DNA from: Chloroflexota bacterium
Lineage (GTDB): Bacteria > Chloroflexota > Dormibacteria > Dormibacterales > Dormibacteraceae
NCBI GenBank assembly: GCA_005882115.1
Contig: VBEG01000050.1
Location: 1-41,764, forward strand
Length of the DNA: 41,764 bases
Direction: 5' to 3'
The position numbers were made by a program, and so were the translations under genes. Below, piece by piece: positions 4,143-34,071 of the stretch. The notes under the pieces were generated by a model. It had not been told where the DNA came from, did not search any database, and was given only the letters and a program-made list of their open reading frames with translations. Every line of letters begins with the position of its first letter. Position 1 is the first letter of the stretch.

Positions 4143-5087
4143 CTAGCGGGGCGTTATGAACTCGATCGCGCCGGGCTGAATCTCGAACAACGCGGGAAGG
4201 AAACCGACCGCCTCGCCGTCGAGGTCGATGCGCACCTTGGCGGGCGATGTGATGGAGACGCGCTTGCCATACATGAGCTCCATTTTGGGATTCGTCTGAT
4301 CCAGATGCTTTCCACTGCGGATGTCGTTCATGCCGCGCATGGTCTCGATCTTGCCTGCGTTCTTGATCAGGATCACATCGAATACGCCGTCGGTCGGTGA
4401 GGCTGAAGGCGCCATCTGCATGCCACCGCCGAAGAACTGGCAGTTGGCCACCACCACCTGCTGAGCCTTGGGCAGCTCGTGCGTCGCGCCGTCGATGTTC
4501 ACCGTCATCGGCTTGTTCTTGAACCCGATCAAGGCCCGCAGGCCGGCAAGGGTGTAGGTCGCGCTGCCAAACCTCTTCGTCCCGTTGCCGACGATGTGGA
4601 CGACCTCGCCACCGAGCCCCGCGTCGGCGATGTTGATGAAGTGCCGCACCCCGGTCGCGCCGTCGGCGGACTGATACGTGACGCAGCCTGCGTCCAGCCG
4701 CCGGACCATGCCGCTGCGCAGGATTTCGATCGCCTGCTTCGGATCGATGGGTATGCGCAGGGTGCGTCGGAAGTCTCCGCCCGTGCCGAGCGGCACCATC
4801 GCGAGCTTGCTGCTCGTCGGAAGCGGTGCGCCGTTGCGAAAGAAGCCGTTCACCACCTCGTTCAGGGTGCCGTCACCACCGACCGCGACCACCACCGGCC
4901 GGGACTCGTGCACAGCTTTCTGCGCGATCTCTGTCGCTTCGAGTGGCCGGGTCGTGAACGCGACCTCGTACGGGAGTCCACTCGTGGGCAGCCAGGACTC
5001 GACCGCGGCCCACTCGCGACCTGCTTTGCCCGCCCCCGACGAAGGGTTGACTATGAACAGGATCGGCGAGCCGGGCCGAGAACCTAT
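4143..5087 (-). CDS. Diacylglycerol kinase / lipid kinase family protein (probable ATA start)
   Basis: Member of the DagK/LCB5 (YegS/DgkB) family that phosphorylates lipid hydroxyls with ATP at the inner membrane face. Visible: ILFIVNPSSGAGKAG at the N-terminus, the nucleotide-binding GGDGTLNEVVNG, and MVPLGTGGDFRRTL, where the usual GTGND reads GTGGD. Length from the proposed start is 314 residues, normal for the family. The only canonical in-frame start is an ATG at 5168, which would add 27 arginine-rich residues and overlap the upstream gene by 85 bp. An ATA at 5087-5085 overlaps the upstream TAG stop (ATAG) and is preceded by GGGAGG with 6 nt spacing, giving MGSRPGSPILFIVNP. I therefore prefer ATA. 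The neighbours glpB and the alkyl-DHAP-synthase-like gene suggest a glycerolipid role. Substrate (diacylglycerol, sphingoid base or other) is not decidable. Confidence 0.85.
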   Translation of the reverse strand: MGSRPGSPILFIVNPSSGAGKAGREWAAVESWLPTSGLPYEVAFTTRPLEATEIAQKAVHESRPVVVAVGGDGTLNEVVNGFFRNGAPLPTSSKLAMVPLGTGGDFRRTLRIPIDPKQAIEILRSGMVRRLDAGCVTYQSADGATGVRHFINIADAGLGGEVVHIVGNGTKRFGSATYTLAGLRALIGFKNKPMTVNIDGATHELPKAQQVVVANCQFFGGGMQMAPSASPTDGVFDVILIKNAGKIETMRGMNDIRSGKHLDQTNPKMELMYGKRVSITSPAKVRIDLDGEAVGFLPALFEIQPGAIEFITPR

Positions 5088-6445
5088 CTCGCGCCTCCCA
5101 CAGCGCGCGGATTCATCAATCGGTCCGGATCGATGCCTTCCTGGACCGCCCGCCAGACGCGCATCCATCCTCCCATCTCATCCGCCACCCATCGGGCGCG
5201 TGCTTGGCCGACCCCGTGGTGGTGGCTGATCGTCGCACCAAGTTCGAGTGCCGTGCTCATCGCTCCTTCCCATGCGCGCCCGTAGGCGGCCCGGGCGTCT
5301 ACTTCGGTGTCTCCAGAGCCGCCGAACGTGAAATACGCGCAGCAGCCCTGCTCGTAGGCATGACTGAAGTGGCATAACGCCAGGCCCCCGACGGCTATTG
5401 CGGTCTTGATCCTTTCGTGGAGCTGAGGAAGCACCGTCCAGTAGGCCGCAACCTCGATCGTGTCCAGGTAAGCGCCCGCGGGCTGGAGAAAGGTCTTGAG
5501 CCGCTCGGCTGACAGGTCGAAGCGATGACGCCGCCATCTCTGCCAGGGCTCTTCGCCGAGATCTCTCGCCTCGCCGGCGAAACGCTTGACCGCCGCCCCT
5601 TCGGCTCTGGCCACGCCGTCGAGCCCTGCGGTCGCGATTACCAGCAGGCACTCGTCACCGGCGACGTCATAGCCGCTGAACGCCGAGTCCTCCGCGTCGT
5701 AGAGGCGCATCACCAGCGGCCGGATGCCGGCCTGCATGATCGCGCGCATGCATTCGAGCCCGGACGCCAGGTTTCCAAACACATAGCCGCGACCCACCGT
5801 TGTCTCGGGCTGGCGGTGGACCCGCAGGACCGCCCCGATCACGACACCAAGGGCACCCTCCGCGCCGATGAGCAGCTGATGCAGCGCTGGGCCGGCGGCG
5901 GATCTGGGACCTGGCCGCGGCGCCGCAAACGTGCCGTCGGGCAGCACCACGGCGAGTCCAAGCACCATGTCCTCGATGCTTCCGTAGCGACTCGACTCCT
6001 GGCCAGAGGATCGCGTGGCGATCAGCCCCCCGATCGTGGTGCCGGGCAGGGAGCTCGGGTAGTGTCCGAGCGTCAGTCCTCGCGCGTCGAGCTGCTGCTC
6101 GAGCGCGTAGCCGTTGACCCCCGCCTCGCAGCGGCACGTCAGATTGGTTTCATCAATCTCCAACACCCGGTCGAACGCGCCCATGTCGAGCACGAGCTCG
6201 CCGGCGGCGGGCGCCAGGGCGCCGCAGACGCCGCTTCCACCGCCCATCGGCGTCACCGCCATCCCCTGCGCGGCGGCCCAACGCAAAACCGCCGTGAGCT
6301 GCTCACGACCCGACGGCCGCGCGACCAGCACCCGCGGAGGCGCCTTGCCGTCCCGGACTTCCATCACCGAGAGTGGCCACAGGTCCCGCACCGCGCGCTC
6401 GTCGACCGCGGCGGCCCCGATCAGCTTCTCGAGCTCCGCCCTCAC
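5084..6445 (-). CDS. FAD-binding oxidase of the alkyl-dihydroxyacetonephosphate synthase type
   Basis: VAO-fold flavoprotein, 453 residues from a GTG that overlaps the stop of glpB (GTGA, no room for an independent Shine-Dalgarno site). The FAD domain shows VTPMGGGSGVCGAL (about residues 64-77), PSSLPGTTIGGLIATRSSGQ and YGSIEDMVLGLAVVLPDG. Near the C-terminus, GATISHHHGVG carries a His triad at about residues 408-410, which in alkylglycerone-phosphate synthase is part of the active site and helps separate it from glycolate oxidase GlcD. In that family the enzyme exchanges the acyl chain of acyl-DHAP for a fatty alcohol, making the ether bond. Whether this protein makes ether lipids is inference; it could instead be a generic FAD-linked dehydrogenase acting with GlpB. 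The longer frame to 6505 is rejected because it runs deep into glpB. Confidence 0.8.
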   Translation of the reverse strand: MRAELEKLIGAAAVDERAVRDLWPLSVMEVRDGKAPPRVLVARPSGREQLTAVLRWAAAQGMAVTPMGGGSGVCGALAPAAGELVLDMGAFDRVLEIDETNLTCRCEAGVNGYALEQQLDARGLTLGHYPSSLPGTTIGGLIATRSSGQESSRYGSIEDMVLGLAVVLPDGTFAAPRPGPRSAAGPALHQLLIGAEGALGVVIGAVLRVHRQPETTVGRGYVFGNLASGLECMRAIMQAGIRPLVMRLYDAEDSAFSGYDVAGDECLLVIATAGLDGVARAEGAAVKRFAGEARDLGEEPWQRWRRHRFDLSAERLKTFLQPAGAYLDTIEVAAYWTVLPQLHERIKTAIAVGGLALCHFSHAYEQGCCAYFTFGGSGDTEVDARAAYGRAWEGAMSTALELGATISHHHGVGQARARWVADEMGGWMRVWRAVQEGIDPDRLMNPRAVGGAR

Positions 6446-7563
6446 TGCTTTGCCGCGTAGCGGCCGGCAAGCCAGCCTGTGAGGATCGGGACGCCAAAAC
6501 CGCACGGTCCTGCGTAGTCGTAACCGCCGAGCACGGCACCGGCGGCGTAGAGGTTCGCGTACGGCACCGAGCCGTCTTCGTCAAGCGGGTGCAGCCGGCG
6601 GTCGGTCATGAGCCCGATGCGCATCTCCTCCGAGGCGTCGATGTACTTCAGGTGATGCAGGCGACTGCCAAGGCTCTCGGCGGGGCGTCCTTCGTAGAAG
6701 ACGCTCAGCCCGAGAAGCGGTTCGGTGGTCGATCGCGCCGCGTGCAGGCCGCCACCGATGTGGCGTCCGGTGGCGAGCACGATCGCGTCGGCGTGGAATG
6801 CCCGATCGGCTGACCGCGCCGCTGTGATGCGCCCACGCGCTGTCTCGAACGAGATGATCTCCCCGTGCACGGCGCCCAACCCGATCGCCTGCTGCAGTCG
6901 CCACCCGTGCGGTGAGGGCGGTGACGCCAGCAGCTCGAAACCGTCATCCGGGAGATTCGTGAACCCCGGTGGGTAGGCGATCGCCGCACCTCGGGCTCGT
7001 GGAGCTGGAGCGCGCCGCCCGTAGAGATCGGTGAGGGCGGCCGCGGTGGGAAGTTCCGCGATCGAGACCTCCTCCGCGAACGCATCGATGCCGTGCAGCT
7101 CTTTCAGGGCGAGGGCGGTGGACCTGGCGTCGTAATCGCCGACTTCCGGGACGCCGATCACCGCCACGCGCTTGCCGCTGAGGGCTCCGAGCTCGCCTCG
7201 TGCGACGGTTTCCGGAACGACGTTGGCCGGCCTGGCGAGGCCGTGGATGTCGGCGTACAGACCGCGATTCCGCCAGCCCCCCTCGAACTTCAACCCTTCC
7301 TTGCGGAGGGCCAGCAGCAGCGTCGAGACCGCGGTGTCGAGCTCGGTCGCCAGCCCGACCGCGTCGATGCCCAGGCGTGTCAGCGGATGGTTTGGTCTCT
7401 GCAGGATCGACTCGATCTCATCGATGATCTCCATCCCGCCCGCGTAAAGCGCGGTGGCGCCCGGCGCTCGGGCGACGACTGTGACTTCGGCCCCATCCCG
7501 GCGGGCCGCAAGCGCGGCGCAGTAACCGGCGATGCCGCCGCCGATCACAAGAACTGTCGTCAA
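6442..7563 (-). CDS. glpB: Anaerobic glycerol-3-phosphate dehydrogenase subunit B-like flavoprotein
   Basis: 373-residue flavoprotein with an N-terminal Rossmann motif VLVIGGGIAGYCAALAA, a middle VLATGRHIGGGLHA segment, and a C-terminal AGAVLGGYDYAGPCGFGVPILTGWLAGRYA as in GlpB. In GlpABC, GlpB helps pass electrons from glycerol-3-phosphate oxidation to GlpC and the quinone pool. Here no glpA or glpC is adjacent; the next gene is an FAD oxidase, so the electron partner is unclear. The start is a TTG at 7563 that overlaps the ribF stop (TTGA), indicating translational coupling. It is slightly shorter than E. coli GlpB (about 419 residues). The family call is firm; physiological role as G3P dehydrogenase is inferred. 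Confidence 0.85.
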   Translation of the reverse strand: MTTVLVIGGGIAGYCAALAARRDGAEVTVVARAPGATALYAGGMEIIDEIESILQRPNHPLTRLGIDAVGLATELDTAVSTLLLALRKEGLKFEGGWRNRGLYADIHGLARPANVVPETVARGELGALSGKRVAVIGVPEVGDYDARSTALALKELHGIDAFAEEVSIAELPTAAALTDLYGRRAPAPRARGAAIAYPPGFTNLPDDGFELLASPPSPHGWRLQQAIGLGAVHGEIISFETARGRITAARSADRAFHADAIVLATGRHIGGGLHAARSTTEPLLGLSVFYEGRPAESLGSRLHHLKYIDASEEMRIGLMTDRRLHPLDEDGSVPYANLYAAGAVLGGYDYAGPCGFGVPILTGWLAGRYAAKQ

Positions 7564-8465
7564 GGAGAAACAAAACGCCGGGTGTCGGCGACGTCGCGAT
7601 GCAACTGCTGAACCAGATCGTCAGGGGTCGGGAACTTGATGTCGGGGTGTAGGTATCTCATGAATTGCAGCTCCAGCCTCTGCTGGTAGAGATCCCCTTC
7701 GAAGTCGAGCAGAAAAGCCTCCACTCGCAGCTGCGTGCCGCCGAATGTCGGCCGGTATCCGACCGAGAGCGCGGCCACGAACTCGCCCTCGGGCGCGACG
7801 GCTCGTCCAGCGTATGCGCCGAGGGCAGGCACGAGCTTGTTCGGCTCGATGCCTATGTTCGCGGTTGGAAAGCCGAGCCGCCGGCCGACGCGATCGCCTG
7901 CCTCGACAGGACCTGTCATCGCGTAGGCGCGACCGAGGAGCCTGTTCGCCGCCTCGACGTCACCCGCCCGGACCAGCCTCCGAATCTCGGAGCTGTGCAG
8001 GTCATGGCCGTCGATCTGGAACGGCGGGACGACCTCGACATCGTGCCCGTGCGCCCGCAGCCATTCGGCGTTTCCGGTGCGCCCGCGGCCGAACGCGAAG
8101 TCGAACCCGATGGTCCAGCGCCGGATCTCCATCACCGAGGAAAGTTGGTCGACGAACTCCTGGGGCGATAGCGAGGCGAGCTGGCGGTCGAATCGCATCA
8201 CGATGGCGTGGTCGACGGCGGCCGCGGAGATGAAGGCCAGCTTCTCCTGGAGCGAGGTGATCGACGGAGGACAGTTCGCGGGGTCGAGCACGCAACGCGG
8301 GTGCGGCTCGAACGTGATCAACGCGGTCTGCGCCTTCGCGGTCCGGCCGGCGCTGACTGCGTGGCTGATTACATCGACGTGTCCCAGGTGCACCCCGTCG
8401 AAGCTGCCGACCGACAGCACGACGGGGCCGATGGGCTCCGTCGGCAGCCCAATATGGACCTTCAG
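7560..8465 (-). CDS. ribF: Bifunctional riboflavin kinase / FAD synthetase (possible CTG start)
   Basis: Makes FMN and then FAD from riboflavin. The FAD synthetase domain shows VGSFDGVHLGH near the N-terminus and FDFAFGRGRTG; the kinase domain shows GRRLGFPTANI and PALGAYAGRAV, ending with a helix around RYLHPDIKFPTPDDLVQQL. The first canonical in-frame start is GTG at 8420, which cuts into the first beta strand. A CTG at 8465 overlaps the truB stop (CTGA), has GGAGAAGG upstream, and yields MKVHIGLPTEPIGPVVLSVG, a normal RibF N-terminus of 301 residues in total. I chose CTG but mark it as probable; the minimum gene is 7560-8420. Supplying FAD next to two flavoprotein genes is fitting context, although truB-ribF adjacency is itself common in bacteria. 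Confidence 0.92.
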   Translation of the reverse strand: MKVHIGLPTEPIGPVVLSVGSFDGVHLGHVDVISHAVSAGRTAKAQTALITFEPHPRCVLDPANCPPSITSLQEKLAFISAAAVDHAIVMRFDRQLASLSPQEFVDQLSSVMEIRRWTIGFDFAFGRGRTGNAEWLRAHGHDVEVVPPFQIDGHDLHSSEIRRLVRAGDVEAANRLLGRAYAMTGPVEAGDRVGRRLGFPTANIGIEPNKLVPALGAYAGRAVAPEGEFVAALSVGYRPTFGGTQLRVEAFLLDFEGDLYQQRLELQFMRYLHPDIKFPTPDDLVQQLHRDVADTRRFVSP

Positions 8466-9376
8466 TGCAGCACCTTCTCCGGTACGAAGGTCCTACGCAG
8501 AGGGTCGGTATGGCCCAGCGCGACCAGGTGGCCGGCGGAGTCGTGCGCTCGCACCAGCCCAGGTCCTGGCTCCGGAAGCACACGCACAGCCCGGCCCTGG
8601 CGCACCTGCGCCTCCTGCTCGACGTTGAGCCTGACTCGTTCCATTTCCGGCAGTATGACTTCCGCCGGAAGCATCCGATCCGAGACGGATTCGGCGTCCG
8701 TGAGCTCGTCGCCACGCACTGCCTGGTCGAGCGTCAGCGGCCCGTAAGCCGTGCGCACCAGGCGCCCGAGGTAGCCCCCGACCCCAAGCCGATCGCCCAG
8801 GTCCCGCGCGATCGAGCGCAAGTATGTACCGCTGCCGCATCTGACCTCGACGCGAGCGACCGCGTGCGGGCCAGCCTGAAAGTCGAGCAGCGAGGCGGCG
8901 TAGACCTCCACCTCGCGCGCGGCGGGCCGCGCGGCCTCGCCTTTGCGCGCGAGCGCGTAAGCCCTCTTGCCCTCCACCTTCACCGCCGAGTACGCCGGCG
9001 GCTGCTGAAGGATGCGACCCGAGAAGGTCGCCAGCGCGGTTTCGACATCGGCGGATACGATGGCGCTCGAGTCGCCCACCGGCTGCGGCTCCGCCTCGGC
9101 GTCGTCTGTCTCGGTCACGAAGCCGAGATGGATGTCGGCGACGTACGTCTTCGGCAGCTTCAGGGCGAACTCGGCGAGACGGGTCGCCGACTCGAAGAGG
9201 ATCGGCAGCACGCCGGTCGCAAGAGGGTCGAGCGTGCCGGCGTGACCCACACGACGGGCCCCGGTGAGGCGCCGCAGCCGGTTCACGACTGCGAAGGAAG
9301 TCTCGCCGGCGCCTTTGTCGAAGTTGAGAACCCCGGTCCTAAATCGAGGAGCGTCAGCGCTGGGACGAGGTGGCAA
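8462..9376 (-). CDS. truB: tRNA pseudouridine(55) synthase
   Basis: Isomerises U55 in the T-loop of tRNAs. The N-terminal signature GVLNFDKGAGETSFAVVNRLRR is followed by RRVGHAGTLDPLATGVLPI, where the Asp is the catalytic residue, then QQPPAYSAVKVEGKRAYALAR and CGSGTYLRSIARDLG; a PUA-like tail ends the 304-residue protein. The frame is open to 9508, but a perfect AAGGAGG sits 6 nt before a TTG at 9376, and no ATG/GTG/TTG lies closer to the domain. I therefore take TTG 9376, which overlaps the end of nrnA by 23 bp. The gene sits between nrnA and ribF in the usual infB-rbfA-truB-ribF order. Confidence 0.95.
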   Translation of the reverse strand: MPPRPSADAPRFRTGVLNFDKGAGETSFAVVNRLRRLTGARRVGHAGTLDPLATGVLPILFESATRLAEFALKLPKTYVADIHLGFVTETDDAEAEPQPVGDSSAIVSADVETALATFSGRILQQPPAYSAVKVEGKRAYALARKGEAARPAAREVEVYAASLLDFQAGPHAVARVEVRCGSGTYLRSIARDLGDRLGVGGYLGRLVRTAYGPLTLDQAVRGDELTDAESVSDRMLPAEVILPEMERVRLNVEQEAQVRQGRAVRVLPEPGPGLVRAHDSAGHLVALGHTDPLRRTFVPEKVLH

Positions 9377-10358
9377 GGATGGCCTCCTTGGCAGCCGACA
9401 GTACCAACTTCGTGGCCTCCTCCATCCCCTTTTCGATCTCGGCGCCGGCGGCCCGGATGTGGCCTCCACCCCCGAACGATGCACACAGGGCGGCGGCGTC
9501 CACCCCACCGCGGCTGCGGACGCTGATCTTGGTCAGGTCGCTCGACACTTCCTTGAACAGGATCGCGAGCTCGAGGCCGGCAATGCTGTTGAGCGTGTCG
9601 ATGATGCCCTCCGACTCGGCCATCACGGCGTTGGCTTCCCTGAGCATCCGGCGCGTCACCTTCGCCCAGGCGAGCCGGCCGTCCATCTCGACCCGCATGG
9701 TCGCGAGCGCCAGCCCGCTGAGCTTGAGTGTGGTCTCCGGCCGCATCTTGTAAACCTGCGTCGCGATGTGTCCGGGGTCCGCGCCGAGACGCGCCAGCCG
9801 GGCCCCGTCTTCGAGGGCACGGGGCGTGGTGTTCTCGTGACGAAATCCTCCTGTGTCCGTCAGCAGCGCAACGTAGAGGTTCGTAGCGATGGTCCGCGTG
9901 ATCGCATAACCGAAGTGGTCGAGCATCTCGATCACCGTCTGCCCGACCGCGGACGCGTCGGGGTCGATGATGTTGATGTCGCCGAACCGCGAGTTGGACG
10001 GGTGGTGGTCGACGTTGACGAGCGTGGCGTGCGAGGCGATACGGCGCACGCCACTGCCTGATCGCTCGAGGTTGCCGGAGTCGAAAAAGAACACGAGCTG
10101 AGGGTCGATGCCGTGTGGAGGCTCCGCCTGGATGTCTTCGAATCCCGGCAGGAACGCATACATCGGGGGTAGCGGTGGGGGGACGAGGACCCAGACGTCT
10201 TTGCCCTGCGACCGCAACGCTTCGGAGAAGGCGAGGCTGCAGCCGAGCGTATCCCCGTCGGCGTCTTTGTGACCGAAGATCAGGATCTCCTGGTTGGCGT
10301 CGATCAGGTCCTTGATCTCGTCGTAGAGATGCGCCTTGTCGCGTTGTGCGGTAACTAT
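9354..10358 (-). CDS. nrnA: Bifunctional oligoribonuclease / pAp phosphatase, DHH family, with an ATA start
   Basis: NrnA-type phosphoesterase that degrades nanoRNA and dephosphorylates 3'-phosphoadenosine 5'-phosphate. Motif I is GHKDADGDTLG, motif III is NVDHHPSN (the DHH), then DTGGFRHENT, and the DHHA1 domain carries FGGGGHIRAAG. Canonical starts fail: an in-frame TGA lies at 10373-10371 and the first ATG/GTG/TTG after it is a TTG at 10217, which would remove motif I. Between them, ATA at 10358-10356 overlaps the rbfA stop (ATAG) and has GAGGAG 8 nt upstream, giving MVTAQRDKAHLYDEIKDLI and 334 residues, normal for the family. It lies between rbfA and truB, a frequent arrangement in Gram-positives and Chloroflexi. 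Confidence 0.93.
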   Translation of the reverse strand: MVTAQRDKAHLYDEIKDLIDANQEILIFGHKDADGDTLGCSLAFSEALRSQGKDVWVLVPPPLPPMYAFLPGFEDIQAEPPHGIDPQLVFFFDSGNLERSGSGVRRIASHATLVNVDHHPSNSRFGDINIIDPDASAVGQTVIEMLDHFGYAITRTIATNLYVALLTDTGGFRHENTTPRALEDGARLARLGADPGHIATQVYKMRPETTLKLSGLALATMRVEMDGRLAWAKVTRRMLREANAVMAESEGIIDTLNSIAGLELAILFKEVSSDLTKISVRSRGGVDAAALCASFGGGGHIRAAGAEIEKGMEEATKLVLSAAKEAILATSSQR

Positions 10359-10732
10359 TGCGATTGCTCCTCAGAAGAGGTTTCGCCGTGAGGGAACACT
10401 TCCTTGAGCAGCTCGGAGATGTGAACGGCGTACTCGATGGTTGGGTCGAGCTCGAACCGCAGCTCGGGTGAGTACTTCAGGTTCTGGAGCCGCCGGCCCA
10501 GCTCGTGTCTGATCAGCCCCTTGGCCGACACGAGTCCTTTGATCGAAGCCTTCTTCTCGTCAGGATTGCCGAGCACGGAAACGCGCACACGCGCCTGGCG
10601 CAGATCGGGCGACATGCGCACGGCCGTGATGCTCACGAAACCGATCCGTGGGTCCTTGAGCTCGCGCCGGATGATGGACATGATCTCTTCGCGCACCTGC
10701 TCCCCCACCTGGTCCGCGCGGTAGCTGGTCAT
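10355..10732 (-). CDS. rbfA: 30S ribosome-binding factor A
   Basis: Small KH-fold protein (125 residues) needed for late 30S maturation and 16S 5' end processing. Visible: RADQVGEQVREEIMSIIRRELKDPRIGFVSITAV and the segment LRHELGRRLQNLKYSPELRFELD (here IRHELGRRL), typical of RbfA. An ATG at 10732 preceded by GGCGGAGG with 5 nt spacing is the best start; a TTG at 10753 would add seven residues. It follows infB by 36 bp, and its TAG stop provides the ATAG overlap for nrnA. The C-terminal tail TSSEEQSQ is acidic/polar and probably disordered. Confidence 0.95.
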   Translation of the reverse strand: MTSYRADQVGEQVREEIMSIIRRELKDPRIGFVSITAVRMSPDLRQARVRVSVLGNPDEKKASIKGLVSAKGLIRHELGRRLQNLKYSPELRFELDPTIEYAVHISELLKEVFPHGETSSEEQSQ

Positions 10733-27084: not shown

Positions 27085-27279
27085 CTAGACCCCCAGCGCC
27101 CGGCGCACCGTCTTGCGGTCCGCCTTCGAGACCGGCTGCTGGTTCTCGTAGTTGCGCTTGCGCTTCTGCGACTTGTGCTCGAGCAGGTGGCTCTTGAAAG
27201 CGGAGCGCCGCATCAGCTTGCCGTTGCGGGTCACGCGAACTCGCTTTGCGATGCCCTTTTGGGTCTTGATCTTAGGCAC
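27085..27279 (-). CDS. rpmI: 50S ribosomal protein L35
   Basis: 64-residue basic protein: MPKIKTQKGIAKRVRVTRNGKL, then a HLLEHKSQKRKRN segment and the terminal RKTVRRALGV, typical of L35. The GTG at 27279 overlaps the end of infC by 8 bp, so translation is coupled. Confidence 0.97.
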   Translation of the reverse strand: MPKIKTQKGIAKRVRVTRNGKLMRRSAFKSHLLEHKSQKRKRNYENQQPVSKADRKTVRRALGV

Positions 27280-27820
27280 TGGTTGCGGCCGGCTCCTTCG
27301 CTGCGCCCTGACGGCTCGGCGCGAGGATCATGAACAGGTTCTTGCCCTCGAGGAGAGGCTGTCGTTCGATGACCGCGAACTGCTTGGCGTCGTCCGCCAC
27401 GCGCTCGAGGATCTTCCGCCCTATCTCCTGATGGACCATCTCGCGGCCCCTGAACATGATCGTCACCTTGACCTTTTCTCCTGCCTCGAGGAACTGTCGC
27501 AAACCCTTGAACTTGGTCTGGAAGTCATGCTCCGCGACCTTCGGCCGCAGCTTCATCTCTTTCAGCTTGATGACGTTCTGCTTGCGCCGCTGGTCCTTCT
27601 CGCGCTTGATGGTCTCGAACTTGAAGCGTCCGTAGTCCATCAGGCGGCAGACCGGCGGGCTCGCCTGCGGCGCCACCTCCACGAGGTCCAGCCCCTTCTC
27701 GTTTGCGATGCGAAGCGCGGCGTCCAGAGAAAGCACGCCCAACTGGTTGTTCTGGTCGTCGATCAGTCGCACTTCCGAGCTGCGGATCTGATCGTTGATC
27801 CTCAGCTCTTTAAACGGTAT
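27272..27820 (-). CDS. infC: Translation initiation factor IF-3 with an ATA (non-AUG) start
   Basis: Binds 30S, prevents premature 50S joining and rejects non-standard start codons. The N-terminal motif LRINDQIRSSEVRLIDDQNNQLGVL and the C-terminal MKLRPKVAEHDFQTKFKGLRQFL and KVKVTIMFRGREM are clear. The first canonical start (GTG at 27772) would delete the conserved RIND segment. An in-frame TGA at 27826-27824 limits extension, and between it and RIND the only plausible initiators are ATA at 27820 and CTG at 27805. ATA has GAGG 9 nt upstream and gives MPFKELRINDQ and 182 residues. In E. coli and many bacteria infC starts at AUU for autoregulation, since IF-3 discriminates against such codons; the same logic fits here. 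Overlaps rpmI. Confidence 0.95.
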   Translation of the reverse strand: MPFKELRINDQIRSSEVRLIDDQNNQLGVLSLDAALRIANEKGLDLVEVAPQASPPVCRLMDYGRFKFETIKREKDQRRKQNVIKLKEMKLRPKVAEHDFQTKFKGLRQFLEAGEKVKVTIMFRGREMVHQEIGRKILERVADDAKQFAVIERQPLLEGKNLFMILAPSRQGAAKEPAATSA

Positions 27821-33321: not shown

Positions 33322-34071
33322 TCACTTCATCTTTTGAAAAAGCGTGATCGCGTTGGCGCGCTCCTGGTCGGCGAGCTGCTCGAGGCTGATCCCGCGCAGC
33401 TCCGCGACGAGTTCCGCCGTGTCGACGAGGTAGGCGGGCCGGTTGGGCACGCCCATCCGTTTCTGGGCGTTGCCGTACGGCGAGTCGGTCTCCAGCAGCA
33501 GGCGATCGGCGGGGCAGCGCTTCACGACCTCACGCAGAGCTTCGCGGCTGGGACGGGTGATCAAGCCCGCAAACGAGAGATAGAAACCGACGTCCAGAAA
33601 CCGCTGCGCCCAGTCCCACTCGAGCCCGAAGTAGTGCATCACCCCGCGCAGGCCGTGGTGGGCCGAGATGGCCGTGAGAAGCTCCTGGGCGGCGCCGCGG
33701 TTGTGGACGGAGACCGGCAGGTCGAGCTCGGTGGCGATCGCGAACAGCTCGTTCAGGCGCTGAACCTGGAGGTCGTTGTGCGGCCCGCCTACGTGCTCGA
33801 AGTCGAGACCGATCTCGCCGATGACCACGACCATCTCATCCTTGGCCAGCGCGTGCATCGCCGCCAGGTCGGGTTCGGACGGCTCGAGAGGGTGGTGACC
33901 GACGCCCGCCCACACCTCCTGATAGGCATGGCCGAGCGAAACAGCGTTGCTGCTGCGATCGAGGTTGACCCCGACCGCGATGAGGCGCGTCACTCCGGCC
34001 GCAACGGCCTGCTGCACGACCTCGGTGGCATCGCCCAGCTCGTCGATATGGAGATGGGTGTCTACGAAGAT
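33322..34071 (-). CDS. tatD: TatD-family metal-dependent DNase (probable ATC start)
   Basis: TIM-barrel hydrolase with 3'-5' exonuclease activity in characterised members. Metal ligands are visible: [28 protein letters not shown] and LLETDSPYG. The only canonical in-frame start is a TTG at 34161, which would add 30 residues and overlap metG by 100 bp. An ATC at 34071-34069 is preceded by GGAGG with exactly 7 nt spacing and gives [12 protein letters not shown], which is just where TatD proteins begin; length becomes 249 residues. I therefore prefer ATC. It overlaps the metG end by 10 bp. The third residue of the usual THCH motif is Leu here (THLH), as in some homologues. Confidence 0.92.

Follow-up and report, generated by a model that had tools for sequence, protein, structure and literature searches.

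A probable AUA start codon in an ATAG stop/start overlap between rbfA and an nrnA-like gene of uncultured Dormibacterota

The rbfA-nrnA junction in the window

The window, that is, the whole 41.8-kb stretch of DNA analysed here, is a contig from a metagenome-assembled genome (3.36 Mb, 147 contigs), and all the genomes with which it was compared are metagenome assemblies. Its minus strand carries rbfA followed by an nrnA-like gene, whose putative start codon shares bases with the rbfA stop codon. The features of this junction are as follows:

10355-10732, minus strand: rbfA (Pfam RBFA, 3.9e-34), with an ATG start at 10732 and a TAG stop (10357-10355) overlapping the putative nrnA start
10371-10373, minus strand: in-frame TGA closing the nrnA frame upstream of the ATA (window sequence)
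10367-10372, minus strand: Shine-Dalgarno (SD) sequence GAGGAG of nrnA with an 8-nt spacer (AGGAG at -13 to -9 conserved in the clade; contrast in anti-SD matches)
10356-10358, minus strand: putative ATA start codon of nrnA in the ATAG stop/start overlap (upstream TGA, no canonical start before the catalytic motif, NTA kept in 31 genomes)
9354-10358, minus strand: nrnA-like DHH/DHHA1 phosphodiesterase gene (Pfam DHH and DHHA1) with the ATA start, where residue 1 would be fMet

The nrnA product matches the Pfam families DHH (3.7e-13, 50.3 bits) and DHHA1 (1.6e-10, 41.7 bits), both above cut-off, and its translation contains GHKDADGD and VDHHPSN, the catalytic DxDGD and DHH motifs. Against the NCBIfam NrnA equivalog NF053633 it scored 86 bits, far under the cut-off of 350, which was not met; "nrnA-like" is therefore the safe name, and the exact substrate is not settled. 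The best solved relative is the phosphodiesterase TM1595. Since residue 13 of the nrnA product aligns to residue 7 of this chain, a start near the ATA is expected.

In the nrnA frame, the minus strand of the junction reads TTC TGA GGA GCA ATC GCA ATA GTT ACC GCA CAA CGC GAC. The frame is closed upstream by the TGA, which lies four codons before the ATA, and the first in-frame ATG, GTG or TTG is the TTG at 10217, downstream of the catalytic GHKDADGD. The criterion that no ATG, GTG or TTG be compatible with the conserved protein is met for nrnA. The ATA (10358-10356) shares bases with the rbfA TAG, giving ATAG, and is preceded at 8 nt by GAGGAG. The preliminary description had proposed a non-standard nrnA start, at ATA within ATAG. 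This proposal held and is supported by the comparison of 31 genomes, without expression data, while the positions of the TGA and of the TTG past the motif, and the GAGGAG at 8 nt, were all confirmed on the window sequence. It is very likely that nrnA starts at the ATA at 10358, the sole reading compatible with all genomes, although this is inferred from sequence alone.

Conservation and origin of the ATAG overlap

The comparison of nrnA covered 31 genomes with an intact junction, from seven genera (that of the window and six further ones) of one Dormibacterota family of uncultured soil bacteria. An NTA codon overlaps the rbfA TAG in all 31, as ATAG in 30 and as GTAG in one, which meets the criterion of a four-nucleotide overlap (a start one nucleotide before the upstream stop, on the same strand and co-oriented). 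The same junction was also found in public contig records from many separate assemblies. In most of the 31 genomes, there is no ATG, GTG or TTG from the upstream in-frame stop through the catalytic motif. Four genomes (G001, G007, G014 and G064) depart from this with a GTG or TTG well within the protein, and two others (G006 and G026) with a canonical codon upstream, 17 or 8 codons off. In G000, G019, G033 and G061, an in-frame stop lies just 3 to 5 codons upstream of the ATA. A close relative with a canonical start at a different position, which would have refuted the preliminary description, was not found among the 31 genomes.

When the 31 junctions were aligned, the upstream sequence proved highly variable. 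Its only conserved stretch is AGGAG at -13 to -9, at a fixed distance from the ATA; the ATA and the next base, a G, are conserved as well, and the differences right after the ATA cluster at the third bases of nrnA codons. The criterion that a start codon and a strong SD be conserved between species is met for nrnA (31 genomes, seven genera). A match of at least 5 nt to the anti-SD complement was present at all 31 nrnA junctions and at 21 of the 22 junctions of a DagK-like gene described below, versus 15 of 112 canonical four-nucleotide overlaps of the same lineage. These junction and SD counts are descriptive, as related genomes are not independent samples.

The last rbfA codon is of eight kinds (CGA, CCA, CAA, TCA, AAA, CTA, ACA and TCG), and its third base is A in 30 of the 31 genomes. 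As a background in the same genomes, A precedes the stop in 19% of genes and the stop is TAG in 32%. An A followed by TAG was fixed across four genera in only one of 108 unrelated gene groups, namely the FAD-linked oxidase located upstream of the ATA-started DagK-like gene. Only six of the 108 groups had TAG throughout, and stop codons otherwise exchange freely. The conservation of the NTAG junction is far beyond chance. Because ATAG is fixed in 31 genomes while stops elsewhere exchange freely, selection is favoured over mere tolerance, although the point is still open and slow drift could explain the pattern.

In six other genera of the family, the rbfA-nrnA junction carries ATG, GTG or TTG, mostly as ATGA, GTGA or TTGA overlaps. 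The preliminary description had asked whether ATAG would be conserved or replaced by ATGA or GTGA in homologues. It is conserved in the clade, and the replacement was found solely outside it, in the family's other genera. In the NrnA tree, one change divides NTG from NTA. This tree was rooted on one distant row, as the outgroup rows of the sister family f2 did not pass a motif filter, which makes the rooting uncertain; a single change is counted wherever the root is placed. When the upstream stop of a four-nucleotide overlap is TAG or TAA, the overlapped start can only be NTA, and ATAG is therefore the UAG version of ATGA. In the proposed scenario, AUA would have arisen once within the family, from an NTGA overlap, and would have been kept afterwards in seven genera. 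If the rbfA stop drifted from TGA through TAA to TAG, ATG would turn into ATA while the coupling geometry stayed unchanged. This drift is inferred, and its TAA intermediate was not seen among the compared genomes.

As a separate observation, the nrnA genes of genus g10 (G025 and G034; L027 and L028) lack a canonical start. The candidates there are ATC after GGAGGAGGG or a CTG in a CTGA overlap.

Other non-canonical starts in the window and in the family

The preliminary description dealt with nrnA alone. The gene is not an isolated case: apart from infC, at least three more genes of this window have non-canonical starts. With nrnA, there are at least five: ATA for nrnA, the DagK-like gene and infC, ATC for tatD and CTG for ribF. 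The genes concerned are the following:

4143-5087, minus strand: YegS/DagK-like lipid kinase (Pfam DAGK_cat, YegS_C), ATA at 5087 in ATAG, with GGGAGG 6 nt upstream
5084-6580, minus strand: FAD-linked oxidase frame (Pfam FAD_binding_4, FAD-oxidase_C), whose TAG stop overlaps the DagK-like start; the upper end is the opening of the frame, not a start
7560-8465, minus strand: ribF, FAD synthetase/riboflavin kinase (Pfam FAD_syn, Flavokinase), CTG at 8465 in a CTGA overlap with the truB stop
27272-27820, minus strand: infC, encoding IF3 (TIGR00168 match; Pfam IF3_N/IF3_C), ATA at 27820
33322-34071, minus strand: tatD-like DNase (Pfam TatD_DNase, 3.1e-62), ATC at 34071, with GGAGGA 6 nt upstream

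The ATAG of the DagK-like gene is conserved in genera g1, g4, g7 and g11 (with one GTAG, in g1), and the gene has ATG or GTG in g2, g3 and g9; in G061, an in-frame stop lies at or just ahead of the ATA. At one and the same codon, 15 genomes start tatD with ATC, G005 with ATG and G014 with GTG, and in G003 and G006 an in-frame stop lies directly ahead of the ATC. The ribF CTG occupies the same position in nearly all relatives compared, with ATG in G022 and TTG in the outgroup G020. The infC start varies between ATA, ATC and ATT within the family and, being a known kind of non-AUG start, serves as an internal positive control. In the outgroup genome G046, infC (L076) has no usual start, and ACG stands where relatives have ATA or ATC.

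Start codons were scanned in 148 gene groups around the nrnA locus in several genera. About nine of the 148 groups were non-canonical; nrnA was the strongest case, and infC was recovered as expected. Groups 85, 97, 66, 139, 47, 123 and others flagged in the scan turned out to have ordinary canonical starts. Of the 275 upstream-homology flags raised in a first pass, most reflected conserved upstream genes translated in a different frame; these flags were set aside.

A few observations were made outside the window. Homologues of HflX, MiaB and FtsY appear to be CTG-started, the CTG being followed by A (CTGA), on contigs of G005, G003, G022, G026 and G019 (L138-L217). The HflX and FtsY CTG codons are overlapped by the upstream stop; in G026, ATG takes the place of the HflX CTG, and the FtsY CTG was seen in two genomes. 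A homologue of type-4 uracil-DNA glycosylase (orthogroup 113) has no ATG, GTG or TTG before its first cysteines in five genomes and shows a conserved TCG CTT AG at the upstream TAG.

Proposed mechanism, rival readings and known systems

The joint explanation that we consider very likely is SD-assisted, termination-coupled initiation by fMet-tRNA at AUA, with one origin in the lineage, lowered output and probable IF3 sensitivity. It rests on what is shown, i.e. the position of the ATA, its conservation, the SD compensation, the canonical outgroups, an ordinary tRNA, IF3 and TilS complement, and the further genes. Actual initiation at AUA is inferred, as these uncultured organisms lack both protein and ribosome-profiling data; here, the ordinary fMet-tRNA(CAU) would initiate nrnA at the AUA at 10358, a near-cognate codon. 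The ribosome that ends rbfA at UAG would be positioned by the strong GAGGAG and would restart one nucleotide back on the AUA, with the same geometry as in the common AUGA overlap. That it would reinitiate, rather than initiation occurring afresh at the SD, is an inference from geometry alone. The AUA would lower the output of nrnA relative to rbfA, a low yield that is likewise only inferred, and nrnA would probably depend on coupling and, as at infC, on IF3. This IF3 sensitivity is likely but inferred from infC and sigR; neither an effect of IF3 on nrnA nor a dependence on rbfA translation has been shown.

Among the rival readings, the one that survives best is that AUA is indeed used as a start but is a neutral leftover, the strong SD and the coupling making the identity of the codon nearly irrelevant, without any regulatory role. 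It remains possible, and it competes only with the regulatory part of our explanation. In its favour, different genes of the lineage start with ATA, ATC, CTG or GTA, tatD exchanges ATC, ATG and GTG, and three genera start the DagK-like gene with GTG or ATG. Against it stands the nrnA ATA/TAG pair, fixed in 31 genomes where only six of 108 groups are all TAG.

Two further readings are very unlikely. According to the first, nrnA starts at another nearby non-canonical codon, such as the ATC at 10364, the GTT at 10355 or one further downstream. The ATC is also near-cognate and in frame, and the extreme N-terminus of nrnA homologues is variable. However, a mere 2 nt separate this ATC from the SD, and relatives have AAC, GAA, AGA and other codons in its place. 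The ATA is followed by GTN or GCN, its column alone is fixed, as is its spacing to the SD, and the alternative starts lack a well-placed SD. According to the second, an RbfA-NrnA fusion is made through programmed -1 frameshifting at the junction. nrnA is indeed in frame -1 relative to rbfA, and the junction follows a purine-rich stretch. However, the 31 junctions show no conserved slippery heptamer and eight different last rbfA codons, an in-frame TGA 3 to 5 codons before the ATA in four genomes would confine slippage to those codons, and the outgroups use ordinary NTGA overlaps.

An ATG at 10358 hidden by a sequencing or assembly error, which the preliminary description had named as a possible refutation and which the metagenomic origin of the window (147 contigs) might suggest, is for practical purposes ruled out by the same junction in 31 genomes, seven genera and many separate public assemblies. 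It is likewise all but excluded that AUA is decoded as Met in the lineage or has an initiator tRNA of its own, as the ATA starts of infC, nrnA and the DagK-like gene could suggest: internal AUA codons align with Ile 267 times and with Met 9 times in the codon alignment of genes, tRNA scans gave one normal initiator tRNA(CAU) (C1:A72, GGG/CCC) and no UAU tRNA, a TilS gene is present and adjoins an Ile2-type CAU tRNA gene, and ATC and CTG serve as starts the same way. The IF3 sequence is ordinary, and an altered IF3 as the cause gave no lead.

The preliminary description had stated that AUA is almost never a start outside infC and that nrnA would extend non-AUG initiation to an ordinary gene. 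Bacteria do begin genes with AUA only very rarely, but a correction is needed. In Staphylococcus aureus, ccpN and citZ (AUA) and cvfC1 (AUU) were already shown to have non-canonical starts (PMC13009471), and sigR of Streptomyces has a GTC start with a strong SD that is repressed by IF3 (PMC5472188); sigR and ccpN thus precede nrnA. The S. aureus starts have a strong SD and give about 10% of the AUG yield in poor medium (PMC13009471), and the SD compensation at nrnA is what these sites and sigR display. Repression of non-canonical starts by IF3 is established; overproduced IF3 also represses reinitiation, though less so when an SD is present (PMC2268962).

Like nrnA, infC (AUU, AUA or AUC, with IF3 autoregulation) has a conserved near-cognate start with an SD, and infC of the same genome also has ATA. 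Unlike infC, nrnA encodes no initiation factor, so that any control would act in trans, and the identity of its start is tied to the overlapping TAG stop, which is not the case for infC. The sigR gene resembles nrnA in that it is an ordinary member of an operon and has a conserved but non-canonical start, which gene callers miss, together with a strong SD. Its codon, however, is GTC, it comes first in its coupled pair whereas nrnA comes second, and IF3 repression is shown for sigR only. The ccpN gene of S. aureus and Bacillus subtilis shares with nrnA an AUA start conserved between genera and an extended SD (PMC13009471); no stop/start overlap is described for ccpN, cvfC1 or citZ in the relevant passages of that paper, unlike nrnA. 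Termination-reinitiation overlaps of the ATGA/GTGA type (PMC10666635; PMC2268962) have a geometry identical to that of ATAG, with the start one base before the upstream stop; the outgroup genera have exactly this geometry with ATG, GTG or TTG, whereas the TAG stop at nrnA forces a non-canonical NTA.

Conserved AUA starts outside infC (ccpN) and IF3 repression of an odd start in an ordinary gene (sigR) were thus already known. What is new, as far as we could find, is that AUA lies within a stop/start overlap and that such starts are so dense in a single lineage; four such sites are described for the whole organism in S. aureus (PMC13009471), against at least five in the 41.8-kb window. A literature search on Dormibacterota and start codons returned nothing. 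The AUAG overlap is an example of a stop and a start codon evolving together. Standard bacterial gene callers accept only ATG, GTG and TTG. Such calling would cost nrnA its catalytic motif or give it a spurious start further upstream, with similar consequences for other genes in the lineage.

Since nrnA is not an isolated case, the lineage rather than the single gene is the unit of interest. If these starts are IF3-sensitive, the lineage offers a natural gene set for testing IF3 as a general regulator beyond infC. A bolder reading, which we find slightly harder to believe than to doubt, is that the family keeps several percent of its genes on AUA, AUC or CUG, many of them in stop/start overlaps with a strong SD, and that these genes form a translational regulon tracking the IF3 level and coupling. 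If this were true, standard gene callers would systematically misplace or truncate such genes. In the control of 51 groups from sister family f2, infC and possibly infB, in one genome, were non-canonical. This control is too small, and we therefore do not claim that the rate in the family of the window (f1, about nine of 148) exceeds that in other bacteria. The infB in question, from the sister-family genome G055 (contig C70), is seemingly ATA-started in an ATAG and begins ATA GCC ACG GTC AAG AAA.
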